Of a stretch of DNA of 64,000 bases, positions 51,775 through 58,492 are shown in pieces. The stretch covers positions 1-64,000 of the forward strand of contig JABFRU010000011.1 in the NCBI GenBank assembly GCA_013140985.1, written 5' to 3'. The notes beneath the pieces are model-generated. The model was not told the DNA's origin, ran no database searches, and was given only the letters and a program-made list of their open reading frames with translations. The position numbers were made by a program, and so were the translations under genes. This DNA comes from Chitinophagaceae bacterium (GTDB taxonomy: Bacteria > Bacteroidota > Bacteroidia > Chitinophagales > Chitinophagaceae). Every line of letters starts with the position of its first letter. The first letter of the stretch is position 1.

Positions 51775-54759
51775 CTAGAATTTATTTATTAATTGCGAGC
51801 TGCTTTTTCCGCCAAGTATCATTTTCAAAATATATGTGCCGTTCCCAAGCCGGCTCATATCCAGTGATAAACTTTGCTTTCCCGCCATGATATTGTAATA
51901 CTGTCCTGTCATTCTTCTGCCATTCAGATCATACAATTCAACCATTGTCTTTTCTGCAGCAACCGAGGATACATTGATCGTTAAAATATTTTTTACCGGG
52001 TTGGGATACACTGTATAATACGTAACCGGTATAGCACTCCTGTCCACCACTTTGATGTCTGTGAAATTAACAGCGCCATCCCTGCTGCGTTGTATCAACC
52101 GGTAATATATTATGCCTGCATACGGATGCAGATCAGTTAAGGAATACGTTTCTATTTTCGACAATGAACCCCTGCCGGCCAGTTGTCCCAGCGAAGTATA
52201 GGTTCTTCCTTCATCAAGGGAACGCTGTACTTCAAACTCCTGGTCATACGCTTCATTCTCTGTTGTCCATTTCAGTATCACCCTGTCGGGTTCATTGATG
52301 GTAAAGAATGAAGTAACCTCCGGCGCTGTATAACGGGCCGCATCATTGCGGGTGTACCAGACAGGAGCCGTAACAATTCTGGAGCCATCAGCTTCGGTAA
52401 TATCAAGATAATAGTATCGCTGACTGCCATTGGCCAGTGCGTTATCTGTATAAGTAAAATTGCCGGATGCAATGCTGGTAAGTTGTGTTGCAGCAGTTCC
52501 GCTTCCGGGTACACCAAACATAATGGCAACAGAACTAATAGCCGAAGCTGTTCCGGTACTGCTTACATTGATCACCGGTGCACCTGCCTGTGTGATGATG
52601 CTGCCCAGTGGTTGTGTGTTCACCGTATAAGTGATCCTTGCGCCACAATCCTGCGAAGCATAGAAACGCATTTGCCGCATACCACTCAGCAAACTATTTT
52701 CAGTTAAGGATGGAGCCATGATCACCAGTCTTGTTTTGGCAGTATGGCCAAAGGTCATGTTGTGATTATCATGATCTATTGTAGGGCCAAGATGATAACC
52801 TTTCGCCAGCATATTTCTGTAATAGCTGAGATAACTCATGGATGTGCCGGGATTGGTATAAGTAGTGTTGGTAGAAAAGGCAGGACCGCTTTCAACAGCA
52901 GAACCTACAATTGCATTGTCGGCGCTTACATCATAAATACTGTTAAGAATATTATTGTAATCGGTATTGTTGGGATGAGCAAGATAAGCAAGCGCATTGC
53001 CGCCATGAATATTCAAACGGTTAAACAATCCACTTGATCCTGTATAAACATTTTTTGTAACAAAAATATCATAGTTGCCCGCTTCCCATCCTATCAATGA
53101 ATCCATTCCATATACAATAACATGACCGCCGCCGCTGATCACACCCCATTCCATTCCATACATACCTACAAAAGATGAGGTGGTGGCTGCTGCAGCCTGG
53201 CTTCTTCCGGGTTGCCAGTTAGTAATACTCATACCGGCCGTAGCATGGTTATGTTCACTGATACCGAGAAAATCCATGCACAATGCTGTTTTTGCATAAG
53301 CATAATCATCCGCAGGAATTTTTGTCGTGTTATCAGCATTACCATCTGAATAACTGCTGTGTGCATGCATATTTCCGAAATAATGATTAAGTGTTGTGCC
53401 GGTATTGCTGTTACCATCAAGGTTTACTTTATTATCATTTAGTCCGGTGCTTGTAAAATTGATAAGGCCGTTGTAATTGGTATTGGCTACCGTGGGGGTA
53501 AAGCGTACCTGTACTGTCTGGCCTGCCTGTGCTTCTGTTTGTGTGTAAACCACCGATCCGGAAAAACTGCTTCCATCTCTTGAAATTTCAAATCCCGCAG
53601 GACTGGTAAGTGTGAGTGATGATGAAATATTGGTGGTAGTATAAGCAAATGTTTGTACAGCAGATGATGACCCTGCTGCCACAAAACCAAACGACAATGA
53701 TGTTGGATTTACAGTAACAGTAGCAGCCGGTGGCGCTAATGTAGTAAATGCCCAGGCAGCAGTGCTGCTGATCCCCGCATAATTGTTTCCTGCAAGATCT
53801 CTGAAAGCCCCTGCATCAATGTTCACATAATAAGACACACTGTTTGCCAGGCCGCTGAAAGGAATAGTGGCTGTTGCACTGCTGACCGTAACCGATGCAG
53901 AAGTAACAGCCGTTGTTTGTACAGCCACATTATCACTTGTTCTTTTAATAATGATATTCCCTGCTGTTCCTTTCTGAATGTTCTCACTGAATGTAATAAC
54001 AAGGTTGCCGCTGAGGGCAACACCTGTAGCTCCGTTGGTGGGATTAAATGCAGTGGTTGTTGGCGGCGTAACATCGCTTCCGTTCAGCTGGATGGAAAAA
54101 TCATCCACACTCAATCCATCATCAGCGCCGCTTGCTCCAAAATCATTCCAGCGGATCCAGAAAGTTGCATTGTTGGCAATGCTGAGCCCTGTTATCACAG
54201 ATGATCTTACTGTTCTGTTTGCAGCCGCATTTCCATCTTTGGCGCCTGTTGTTGCCGTGGAAGGAGAAACAAAATCCAATGCATTAAAATCTGTCCATGT
54301 GCCGGTGGAAAGTGAAGTAGCCGTAAGGCTGTACTGAAAATCCAGCTGATCTGTTCGGCCGGCTGTACCACAACGCCATTGTTCGCCGGTATAACTAATG
54401 GTCAGTGAGGTGATTGTTGAGCCGGTACTGTTTCTTATTTGTACACCAATGGTGGGAAGCAATGAGCCGGATTGCAGGCCACCAAAAGCCCGGTCGGTAT
54501 TGGTGCCGGTACCATAACTATATGTATTACCCGTTGTGCCGCTGCCCGCATCTGCTGCCAGTGTAGTATTGGCATTGGTACCTGTCTCCAGCAAACGCCA
54601 TCCTGTAGGCAATGTGGATGAAGTGCCGGAGGTAATAAGTGTATTAAAATTTTGTGTGTAAGGTGTAGCGGTAGATGTAACTACCACCTGTGCATGAAGT
54701 GTTGCAGTAACCAGCAGAAAGATCAGCATAGCCGGAATGACTGCGAAGTATTTTCTCAT
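51775..54759 (-). CDS. Large secreted protein: Ig-like, PHP-like metallohydrolase, T9SS sorting domain
   Basis: The ATG at 54759 (MRKYFAVIPAMLIFLL) starts a signal peptide (cleavage near LHAQ); a longer start lacks one. About 994 residues. Order: N-terminal beta region (about 25-230), a Big_5/SbsA-type Ig-like domain (FNPTNGATGVALSGNLVITFSE), a second beta-sandwich (TVNPTSLSFGFVAAGSSS), a PHP-like region (NMHAHSSYSDG, LGISEHNH, and AHPNNTDY), fibronectin-like strands, and a C-terminal T9SS type A sorting domain (YPNPVKNILTINV, GTYILKM). Probably an exported phosphoesterase-like or degradative enzyme; substrate unknown. Confidence 0.83.
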   Translation of the reverse strand: MRKYFAVIPAMLIFLLVTATLHAQVVVTSTATPYTQNFNTLITSGTSSTLPTGWRLLETGTNANTTLAADAGSGTTGNTYSYGTGTNTDRAFGGLQSGSLLPTIGVQIRNSTGSTITSLTISYTGEQWRCGTAGRTDQLDFQYSLTATSLSTGTWTDFNALDFVSPSTATTGAKDGNAAANRTVRSSVITGLSIANNATFWIRWNDFGASGADDGLSVDDFSIQLNGSDVTPPTTTAFNPTNGATGVALSGNLVITFSENIQKGTAGNIIIKRTSDNVAVQTTAVTSASVTVSSATATIPFSGLANSVSYYVNIDAGAFRDLAGNNYAGISSTAAWAFTTLAPPAATVTVNPTSLSFGFVAAGSSSAVQTFAYTTTNISSSLTLTSPAGFEISRDGSSFSGSVVYTQTEAQAGQTVQVRFTPTVANTNYNGLINFTSTGLNDNKVNLDGNSNTGTTLNHYFGNMHAHSSYSDGNADNTTKIPADDYAYAKTALCMDFLGISEHNHATAGMSITNWQPGRSQAAAATTSSFVGMYGMEWGVISGGGHVIVYGMDSLIGWEAGNYDIFVTKNVYTGSSGLFNRLNIHGGNALAYLAHPNNTDYNNILNSIYDVSADNAIVGSAVESGPAFSTNTTYTNPGTSMSYLSYYRNMLAKGYHLGPTIDHDNHNMTFGHTAKTRLVIMAPSLTENSLLSGMRQMRFYASQDCGARITYTVNTQPLGSIITQAGAPVINVSSTGTASAISSVAIMFGVPGSGTAATQLTSIASGNFTYTDNALANGSQRYYYLDITEADGSRIVTAPVWYTRNDAARYTAPEVTSFFTINEPDRVILKWTTENEAYDQEFEVQRSLDEGRTYTSLGQLAGRGSLSKIETYSLTDLHPYAGIIYYRLIQRSRDGAVNFTDIKVVDRSAIPVTYYTVYPNPVKNILTINVSSVAAEKTMVELYDLNGRRMTGQYYNIMAGKQSLSLDMSRLGNGTYILKMILGGKSSSQLINKF

Positions 54760-54896
54760 ATAGCTTTTGATGTTGGTACGATGTAATATGGAAAATATAA
54801 TCAGAAAGAACAAAGAATTTACAACAGGTAATATCCACAGTTGTTAGTATGTGGCCGGGATTACCGGCTTCATCTAAGTATGAATACTTATAAAAT

Positions 54897-56195: not shown

Positions 56196-56758
56196 TTAAT
56201 TACGGATGAGATTAACCACCAGTTTTATCATTATCTCTTTATCATCCGGATTGCTTTGTGCCACTAATAATGCTAATGCCACCAGTGCATTATCGTTGAT
56301 CTTCAGTTCGCCGGATTTTTTAAAGCGGTGTTTGTTTTTTTCCAGGAACCATACAAATAAAAATGCACCGATACGTTTATTACCATCGGTGAAAGGATGG
56401 TTCTTAATAACGAAGTATAATAAATGTGTCGCTTGCTATTCTATACTCTTGTACAAATATTCGCCTCCGAATGTTTGTACAACAGAATTTAATATCCCTC
56501 CAAAGGCCCCGTCCCTTTCATTCCCAAACAAGGCAGAAGCTTCCTTCTTTTTTATTAATTGTTTCTTCAGCTCTGTAATTGCCTTTACCGCCTCGCTGTA
56601 TTCAATTTCATAAGTGATGTTTTTATTCAGCTTTGCTTCCGGCAGGTTGTTGCTGTCAAACTGGTTTAATAAAATAAAACTCTGTGTGTAATTGGTGATG
56701 ATCTCCAGTAAGCCTTTGGCTTCTTCTTGAGTACTGATGGAGCTGAAATTGAAAAATT
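56196..56758 (-). pseudogene. Fic/DOC domain remnant of a RhuM-Fic family gene
   Basis: Read in one frame, the strand encodes QEEAKGLLEIITNYTQSF, YEIEYSEAVKAITELKK, VVQTFGGEYLYKSIE, then a TAG stop (56436-56438) where the family has a Glu, then QATHLLYFVIKNHPFTDGNKRIGAFLFVWFLEKN, the Fic catalytic motif HPFxDGNKR intact, ending NLIRN at 56196. A single base change (GAG to TAG) would explain the internal stop. The N-terminal RhuM-like DNA-binding half is missing: upstream of about 56758 the sequence turns into the methyltransferase gene. The gene is therefore broken twice. Confidence 0.8.
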
Positions 56759-57247
56759 TTTTCTTGTGCCAATTAGAATTAAACGCTGTCTGCGTTGGGG
56801 CAACCAGTTTGCTGCATCAACCGGACAAAAAACATTCACATAATAATCTGGAAGTTTTGTCATTGCCTCCATTACAACTTTGAATTTTCGCATTCCCGGA
56901 ACATTCTCGACAATATACATTTCAGGTTTTTCAATTGCTATATGCCGGAAGAAATGAAGAAATAAATCATCCCCAGTACGAGTGCCATGAATATCAGCAA
57001 TCGGAGAATATTTTGTGCAAGGATAAGTGCCAACAATAATGTCTGTCCTCGGTTGTTCTAAAACTGTTTTATCCTTAATATCTGTAGTTAAAATTGTATG
57101 GCTGAAATAATGGCCATTCCGTTTCATGCAATCAGTTGCTTCTTTGTCAAGATCGAGGGATTGAACTAATTCTACTCCGGCTAATAACAATCCGAGTTCC
57201 ATTCCTCCGCAACCTGAGAAATATCCTTTTGCAGTAGGCTTATACAT
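56666..57247 (-). pseudogene. C-terminally truncated C5-cytosine DNA methyltransferase
   Basis: The 193-codon ORF has methyltransferase motifs up to about residue 163: motif I YFSGCGGMELGLLLAG, motif IV TYPCTKYSP (PC-T, versus the usual PCQ), motif VI IVENVPGM, and motif VIII QRRQRLILIGTRK. The target-recognition region and motifs IX-X are absent; the frame instead passes into Fic-derived sequence in a different frame (after about 56758) and ends at 56666. It follows the HNH nuclease gene by 5 nt, so it was the modification partner of a restriction system. Activity is doubtful. Confidence 0.8.
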
Positions 57248-57252
57248 TTTTT

Positions 57253-58029
57253 CTATCCTTTAAAGATTTCATCAAGGTGATAATCCAAAAACTCTTTGTT
57301 AGGAGGGTATTTTTGAGGCATCTTAATTTTCATTCCTGCTATTTCTCCAAAACATTTTGAATAATAGGCTTGCTTCACTTTTTTCTTGACTTCTGATGAT
57401 AAAATAATTTCAAATTTTTTTGTGACGCTGATATATCCTTTATCAAAAGCGCAATCATATAGGGCAGAGAAACATATCCCATTTTCGGGGTTCAATCTTT
57501 CCTGTTCATTTTTTGACCATGGGATAATGTGACTTGCTTTTAATAAAGGAACTATATCTATTCCAGTAATTGCACATTTGCCGTTATAATTTGCTAAGAC
57601 AATATCACGAAACACATCCTGATTAACCCTTGTTTTAACTTCTCTTATTTTATCTACCCCTTTTAATTTTTCCGTTCCTTTTAAGGCTTCAGCATGTTTG
57701 TTTTCAAGAGAAACATTTTCTTTTAGTGCAAGAATTTTTTCGCTTTCAAAAATCAATTCTTCTTTGTTATATATAAATTCATTCCAAATCGGCTGTACTT
57801 GTTTAACACCTCCCGGCAAACCCCTTATCCCTCTTTGTTGATGAAAGGGATCAACACTTGCAAAGTTGTTCAATCTCATTGAAACAGCTCCCTTGGTTCT
57901 TCCAATGATATTTGCCAAATGAATTACTTCTGGCGTTCTTGCATCGAGCTTACCAAAAGGAAGTTTTAAATATAAATTCAATACAAGAATTAATTCTTCC
58001 CTTGTCCAAAGACGTTGTCCTTCTTTCAT
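57253..58029 (-). CDS. HNH endonuclease, probable type II restriction enzyme
   Basis: 258 residues. The N-terminus has a helical region (LWTREELILVLNLYLKLPFGKL, then IIGRTKGAVSMRLNNF) as found in stand-alone HNH restriction nucleases. The nuclease core is CAITGIDIVPLLKASHIIPWSKNEQERLNPENGICFSALYDCAFDKGYI (Cys about 152, His about 167, Asn about 183), an HNH core with HIIPW and NPENG. It lies 5 nt upstream of the truncated C5 methyltransferase. The reading frame is intact, whereas its partner is broken. Specificity cannot be read. Confidence 0.82.
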   Translation of the reverse strand: MKEGQRLWTREELILVLNLYLKLPFGKLDARTPEVIHLANIIGRTKGAVSMRLNNFASVDPFHQQRGIRGLPGGVKQVQPIWNEFIYNKEELIFESEKILALKENVSLENKHAEALKGTEKLKGVDKIREVKTRVNQDVFRDIVLANYNGKCAITGIDIVPLLKASHIIPWSKNEQERLNPENGICFSALYDCAFDKGYISVTKKFEIILSSEVKKKVKQAYYSKCFGEIAGMKIKMPQKYPPNKEFLDYHLDEIFKG

Positions 58030-58492
58030 AATTTGTTGTTGTTTGCATGGTTAATATACTACTTCGGCAAGACTGTTTTGTGGCTTTTAAGACACGTTGG
58101 ATAATTAGTGTAAAAAAATTGGGCATCTCCGGCTTGGTATTCCCGCTTCATATGCGACTCATATTATAACTGCGGGTCTTGTTATCATGCACATCGGCCA
58201 TGCTACAAAGTTACCGGGTGCGGGCATCAGCCCTGCCGGCTCACTATCAGGCCCCTATCTGCGCCCTACCAGGTTCCCCCGGCTTCCCCTTTTTTCTGCA
58301 TTATGTTAAGTCAGTACAAGGCAGGGCATAGATCAGGCATACATTAAGCATAGATAATGTATAGATAGTGCATATAGATTGCAGGGGTGGTGTATCACTA
58401 TGTTCCCCGAAGGTTCTTATCCGGTACCTTTTGCTTGCTGTTCGGGAATCAGCGATTGTTGTACAGGTCTTTTTTATAGTTTAAATTTGAGC
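58030..58492. other. Non-coding stretch in the accessory island
   Basis: No gene is found. The sequence is visibly more GC-rich and mixed than its neighbours in 58130-58300, then holds an array of 11-bp repeats at 58326-58380. It separates the HNH gene (minus) from the small gene/nucleotidyltransferase pair (plus). Confidence 0.55.
58326..58380. repeat. Five direct repeats with exact 11-bp period
   Basis: Units at 58326, 58337, 58348, 58359 and 58370: GCATAGATcag, GCATACATtaa, GCATAGATaat, GTATAGATagt, GCATATAGATT. The period equals one helical turn, so protein binding on one face or bending is possible; it may also be an iteron-like relic. Confidence 0.7.

Follow-up and report, generated by a model that had tools for sequence, protein, structure and literature searches.

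A restriction nuclease that has lost its methylase is expected to kill its host, and restriction-modification (R-M) systems should therefore lose the nuclease first. How, then, can an HNH nuclease gene stay whole beside a C5 methyltransferase (MTase) gene that has lost its end? We addressed this question in the window, i.e., the whole analysed stretch of 64,000 nt on contig JABFRU010000011.1 of the Chitinophagaceae bacterium GCA_013140985.1, a draft assembly of 83 contigs. The earlier note on this DNA had held that an active nuclease without a modification enzyme would be lethal, and had therefore considered an inactive nuclease, a compensating C5 MTase elsewhere, or a truncated MTase working with a missing partner. 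We find it fairly probable, though well short of certain, that the locus is the remnant of an R-M operon with a dead MTase, whose HNH nuclease would be tolerated as a conditional or silent enzyme.

The broken operon and its joint with a RhuM-Fic gene

All parts of the locus lie on the minus strand, in the order vsr 5' remnant, HNH gene, C5 MTase 5' part and RhuM-Fic 3' half. The vsr remnant (58124..58201) consists of 17 codons, a TGA at 58150-58148 and then 8 recognisable codons, while the HNH restriction-type nuclease (57253..58029) is followed after 5 bp by the MTase part (56740..57247). Because a vsr remnant stands upstream of the HNH gene, the locus is, judged by its sequence, a decayed vsr-HNH-C5 MTase R-M operon in a defence-gene neighbourhood, and the HNH gene is the sole whole gene left of it.

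The MTase part encodes about 170 of 295-299 aa with motifs I-VIII. Its ORF (56666-57247, 193 aa) matches PF00145 with E=2e-23 over profile positions 7-169 of 324 only, and has FSGCGG, PCTKYS, ENVPG and QRRQR at residues 10, 76, 114 and 151, which we take to be C5 MTase motifs I, IV, VI and VIII, respectively. Both the profile and the comparison with full-length relatives agree with the earlier note that the protein ends after motif VIII and lacks the recognition region and motifs IX-X; since these relatives (in G048, G039, G035 and L070) have 295-299 aa, about 40% of the window MTase is missing. The DNA homology to the MTase genes of G039 and G035 stops at 56739, that to L070 reaches 56748 and that to L098 continues to 56716, and homology to the RhuM-Fic genes of G024, G030, G008, L070, L074 and others starts at 56721-56725 and ends at about 56203. 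MTase homology thus gives way to RhuM-Fic homology within about 15 bp, which places the breakpoint at 56724..56739, and the MTase ORF ends in foreign DNA, its tail (56666..56723; the terminal 18-23 codons) being RhuM-Fic DNA read out of frame. These DNA alignments show the truncation to be a novel joint, in which the last 40% of the MTase gene is replaced by the 3' half of a RhuM-Fic gene. From the relatives we infer that the MTase fragment is dead.

The RhuM-Fic/Doc piece (56199..56723) contains an in-frame TAG at 56438-56436. The full gene in G024 carries PF13310 and PF02661, and there, too, it is followed by a homologue of the window gene 51775-54813, so the RhuM-Fic piece probably is a resident of the site. 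Among the best 80 of 519 HNH relatives, a RhuM-Fic gene occurs within four genes of the HNH gene at six loci. A search of the own assembly for the RhuM-Fic 5' half, run without a positive control, gave no match, an outcome that carries no weight by itself. The missing C-terminal half of the MTase was not found in the own assembly either; at E <= 0.001 it matched nothing but the motif IX-X termini of the two other, full MTases, and it drew two weak matches besides (E 0.08 and 0.09).

Complete copies, for which the earlier note had pointed to relatives, do exist. An HNH gene with a full MTase of 295-299 aa is present in L070, L073, L075, L076, L086/G048, L095, L097 and L098. L070, from the MAG SZAS-50, is the closest HNH relative (81%) among the best 80 of 519, and a quick tree groups it with the window HNH at 99% SH-aLRT. 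It gives a 78.5% alignment with window positions 56748-58115 and one of 78.7% with the RhuM-Fic piece, and it contains an intact 295-aa MTase, a shortened vsr ORF of its own, and a RhuM-Fic gene at most 350 bp from the HNH gene on the opposite strand. The joint may have arisen by deletion, if the two genes once had the L074 arrangement, with HNH before RhuM-Fic on the same strand, or by inversion and loss, if they had the opposite orientation seen in L070. The HNH-RhuM-Fic interval of L074 has no significant blastx match to the MTase (best E 0.89). Around the breakpoints, the L070 MTase and RhuM-Fic genes have no word of at least 8 bp in common, which points to an illegitimate joint. A repeat-mediated origin was considered and rejected; one 7-mer near the breakpoints is common to the two L070 genes, and it need not lie at the joint.

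The joint could instead be an assembly chimera, or a complete MTase could have stayed unassembled. The draft state of the assembly would allow for this, and in a search of 97 genomes the joint was absent outside the window's own genome. We nevertheless regard an assembly error as very unlikely, because the ends of the 136-kb contig are 56 kb and 79 kb away from the joint, the L070 genes have no common word of at least 8 bp around the breakpoints, neither missing half was found elsewhere in the assembly, and the 51775-54813 homologue follows RhuM-Fic in G024 as well. Moreover, the nonsense codon in RhuM-Fic and the vsr remnant indicate that the locus is decaying anyway. Still harder to believe is that the MTase is split in the manner of M.AquI, its second half being encoded at another place. 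M.AquI divides near the truncation point of the window MTase, and inactive M.SssI fragments complement each other, according to PMC3404938. The missing partner considered by the earlier note did not turn up in the assembly, however, and a fragment that ends in out-of-frame foreign DNA argues against such a division of labour. In the history that we find likeliest, a small Type II-like operon decayed, the MTase being destroyed by fusion to RhuM-Fic and vsr being reduced as well, and the HNH gene alone survived whole.

Integrity and predicted fold of the HNH nuclease

The HNH protein has 258 aa, with a helical N-terminal domain and a C-terminal HNH_2 domain. It is not shortened, given a median of 257 aa among 84 HNHs with lengths from 239 (cut by a contig end) to 284 aa, and the PADLOC HNH model matches it with E=3e-82; the wholeness and the coordinates given in the earlier note were thus right. 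The catalytic set H167, N183, D192 and D196 is kept. Compared with 83 relatives, V16, V125 and V160 are the only departures from columns conserved above 85%, and none of them is catalytic. Decay at C193 was also considered, as this position holds K in 54 and R in 24 of the 84 HNHs, and was rejected because L070, with its intact MTase, also has C. The inactive nuclease considered before is thus not indicated by the residues of the protein.

In the AlphaFold model (pLDDT 93.8), residues 1-120 are predicted to be all-helical and no strand occurs in residues 1-160. PUA-type domains are beta-rich, and the model contains no beta-rich reader domain of the PUA superfamily. Foldseek gave no match to the N-terminal domain at E <= 0.001. 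A second structural look for a modification reader there returned homeodomains and Myb-like domains with Z of at most 5.8 over about 60 residues, which is too weak, and this candidate was dropped. Structurally, the HNH domain is most similar to two modification-dependent enzymes, VcaM4I (Z 13.4 over 128 residues) and TagI (Z 12.1 over 108 residues). The residues H224, N241, D250 and D254, described as the VcaM4I active site in PMC7897488, align with the window residues H167, N183, D192 and D196.

These matches, together with the shared active site of H-N-D plus D, raise the possibility that the HNH protein is a modification-dependent, Type IV-like nuclease, which would spare the unmodified host and for which neighbouring MTases would not be protectors. 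A weak NCBIfam match to a phosphorothioate-dependent nuclease (56.6 bits, far under the 180-bit cut-off) and the presence of HNH genes in genomes without a C5 MTase match point in the same direction. On the other hand, specificity does not follow from similarity of the nuclease domain, the model has no beta-rich reader, and the linkage with C5 MTase and Vsr at many loci resembles a protected Type II system. We therefore consider modification dependence rather unlikely as the full account of this protein.

A recent mobile origin of the HNH gene was rejected, as its relatives in 144 plasmid records and 9 phage records all have less than 60% identity to it. Among the plasmid relatives, the HNH of Hymenobacter yonginensis NZ_CP115397.1 (L155, 4001-4786; 38% identical) has no annotated MTase within 4 kb in a plasmid gene table that is incomplete.

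HNH genes with and without methyltransferases

We compared the loci of the best 80 of 519 HNH relatives, which are not a random sample and whose E-values refer to the candidate stretches. A full C5 MTase is present in 32 cases and a broken one in 5, while 40 loci are without one and 3 are cut by a contig end. Short flanks mark 20 of the 40 MTase-less loci; counting only loci with at least 5.5 kb on either side gives 22 full, 20 none and 3 broken. The broken MTases are stubs with differing ends in L099, L104, L127 and L129 and an internal deletion in L140; L097, counted as full, has a second, partial C5 MTase as well. On the HNH tree, full and lacking states at long-flank loci amount to 19 changes, and the six rows with broken MTase, window included, to 6 changes, of which at least 5 are forced by starred branches; these counts do not separate gain of the MTase from its loss. 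Each of the 45 MTase-lacking HNHs in this set of 80 retains H, N, D and D, and the more distant MTase-lacking HNHs L051 and L053 have E at position 196. Vsr occurs within four genes of the HNH gene at 12 of the 80 loci; at 6 of these 12 the locus is without a C5 MTase, and there Vsr looks like a trace of lost 5mC systems.

The four stubs stand directly upstream of a whole HNH gene (L099, 5692-6768; L104, 5726-6774; L127, 777-1793; L129, 5780-6771), and their motif X end is still recognisable in L099 and L104. In L050 (1449-8039) and also in L104, a four-gene set encoding an 886-aa protein that matches PF12128 (DUF3584) lies downstream of the HNH gene; related loci have a 112-aa gene adjoining HNH in its place, so the set looks inserted. 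Seven loci represent a single chromosomal site of Flavobacterium adjoining an S30AE-domain gene (PF02482), which is occupied by a solo HNH gene in L121, L128 and L131 and by HNH with a C5 MTase in L107, L112, L114 and L134, and which thus offers a useful natural comparison of solo and MTase-linked copies.

PF00145 was sought in 26 genomes, which were mostly picked for an MTase-less HNH locus (G088 is the same as G114; the L073 genome is outside the set) and of which three, G049, G077 and G088, have a stated completeness. In 19 of them the HNH locus has no MTase. Seven of the 19 had no PF00145 match anywhere, which favours our main reading, and the other 12 had at least one, which speaks against it. 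The seven are Segetibacter koreensis (L091), two Flavobacterium (L121 and L131), Sunxiuqinia (L109), two MAGs (L126 and L074) and G049, the last being the only one among them with a stated completeness (99%). Further observations in these seven also count against it: PF01555 matches occur in six (G098 has none) and PF02384 matches in all three genomes tested, a probable N6/N4 MTase with PF01555 just below the cut-off adjoins the HNH gene in L109, and the HNH of G049 (L051) has E for D at 196 and is only 46% identical. As relatives often keep the HNH gene without an intact MTase adjacent, the orphan HNH is not the deadly paradox that it seems, and the lethality assumed in the earlier note is not supported as a rule, given the genomes without any match. 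A less usual feature of this HNH family is the frequency with which its loci are without an MTase.

Could another MTase of the own genome protect the HNH sites? Full-length C5 MTases, at least one per genome, were found elsewhere in all four searched genomes with a broken HNH-locus MTase (L099, L104, L127 and L129), so that protection from elsewhere is possible there; it may be so too for the 12 genomes with a C5 match and for the window's genome, which has two other C5 MTases, on contigs C29 and C37, and two PF01555 matches. Against this, the C29 and C37 MTases align to the missing half only from query residues 65 and 77 onwards, past the recognition region, for which the own genome gave no match. 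Each of the two is also accompanied by its own nuclease gene, an HNH (PF01844) at C29 and a MvaI/BcnI-family gene (PF15515) at C37, and both therefore resemble complete systems more than MTases free to protect other sites. A compensating C5 MTase is thus not supported; either of the two may have the specificity of the lost one, but protection by another enzyme of this genome appears improbable. The C29 locus (L048, 7653-9192) encodes a 327-aa full C5 MTase overlapping the HNH gene, probably a complete R-M system; at C37 (L049, 8202-11791), a 799-aa C5 MTase ORF contains a PF17293 integrase-type arm DNA-binding domain in its N-terminal extension.

Selection was estimated as dN/dS by the Nei-Gojobori method, with many dS values near saturation. 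The solo Flavobacterium HNHs L121, L128 and L131 gave 0.077-0.111, and three MTase-linked Flavobacterium sets 0.042-0.148 (14 of 15 pairs; one was saturated and several had dS >2). Because L128 and L131 are both solo, the HNH gene probably has been kept without an adjacent MTase for a period equal to some 0.8 in synonymous distance. A possible exception to full MTase absence is found in the genome of L128, with a 606-aa C5 MTase-like ORF with weak matches (60 and 35 bits). The window and L070 HNHs have a dN/dS of 0.08, and values inside the broken-MTase group mostly reflect the time before the breaks.

These values also bear on the possibility that the window HNH, as a classical Type II enzyme, is not expressed or not active here, the MTase having died after or because of that, and is thus a recent leftover. 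Such general decay would fit with vsr, MTase and RhuM-Fic all being broken at one place, and non-expression is what Ershova et al. 2012 propose for solitary nucleases, in PMC3488263. However, the HNH gene itself is without decay, with its three non-catalytic departures and low window-L070 dN/dS; it is the whole gene nearest the 5' end of the operon, the stretch upstream of it is homologous to that in L070, and solo copies elsewhere are constrained. We regard a silenced Type II enzyme as possible, and as the first of four rivals, followed by modification dependence, protection by another MTase and assembly error, in that order.

In the operon remnant that we prefer, the HNH would be tolerated because enzymes of its family would spare host DNA without the MTase, as their relatives' genomes suggest. 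Family members would do little or nothing to host DNA when their MTase is absent, either because cutting is conditional, requiring a partner, a signal or modified DNA, or because the gene is silent. The orphan HNH would then be a leftover on its way out or could still be useful alone, as the constrained solo copies in Flavobacterium suggest. A bolder view, which we offer only tentatively, is that the nucleases of the helical-domain HNH family, rather than being ordinary Type II enzymes restrained by their MTase, act autonomously or conditionally and spare the host, lose their C5 MTase (and Vsr) time and again, and are maintained alone by selection. If true, this would turn round the familiar course of R-M decay, which begins with loss of the nuclease. 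A family so often without an intact methylase provides a testable set of proteins for the question of how an orphan nuclease spares its host.

Comparison with known systems

VcaM4I, the modification-dependent EVE-HNH nuclease (PMC7897488), is like the window HNH in its HNH domain and active-site residues and unlike it in its EVE reader domain, as the N-terminus of the window HNH is all-helical in the model. R-M loci that combine a C5 MTase, a GHKL protein and a response-regulator-like protein with HNH_2 and Vsr, as described in PMC8011034, are akin to loci of the family HNHs in Flavobacterium, where we read the genes beside C5 MTase and HNH as GHKL-type from their sequences. Those loci carry an ATPase and a regulator, whereas the window carries a compact two-gene HNH-MTase form with neither.

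An independent parallel comes from Neisseria gonorrhoeae. The plasmid search for HNH relatives gave two gonococcal records, NZ_CP119140.1 and NZ_CP119142.1, which are in the plasmid collection as gonococcal plasmids and, at about 2.17 Mb, are evidently chromosomes. In NZ_CP119140.1 (L154, 2950-4741), Vsr (PF03852), MTase and HNH follow in sequence between the phenylalanyl-tRNA synthetase alpha and beta genes; the MTase is cut to 133 aa (PF00145 positions 1-67), and the HNH is whole, with 249 aa, PF13391 and 37% identity to the window HNH. Because its MTase length and Vsr neighbour agree with those of NgoAXIII, we infer that this locus is NgoAXIII, which PMC6789123 describes as VSR and then an MTase of 112 or 133 aa (362 aa in N. 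lactamica) that is inactive and no more than a remnant in its 25 strains. The main text of that paper does not mention an HNH. The gonococcus thus lives with this arrangement, although the paper gives it 13 to 15 complete R-M systems, so other MTases are at hand there. NgoAXIII thus resembles the window in its truncated C5 MTase, whole HNH and Vsr, and differs in that its Vsr is whole and the order is Vsr-MTase-HNH.

Ershova et al. 2012 list 74 solitary nuclease genes with a corrupted MTase nearby, of which 11, in 10 orthologous groups, are Type II, and discuss non-expression, activity that needs the MTase, and absence of sites (PMC3488263). The window locus shares with these a full-length nuclease, a truncated MTase within 4 kb and an intact orthologous pair in other species, and we count it as a further case of this class. 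It stands apart from the class in that its break is resolved as a fusion to RhuM-Fic, and in that roughly half of the examined loci of its HNH family have no full MTase.
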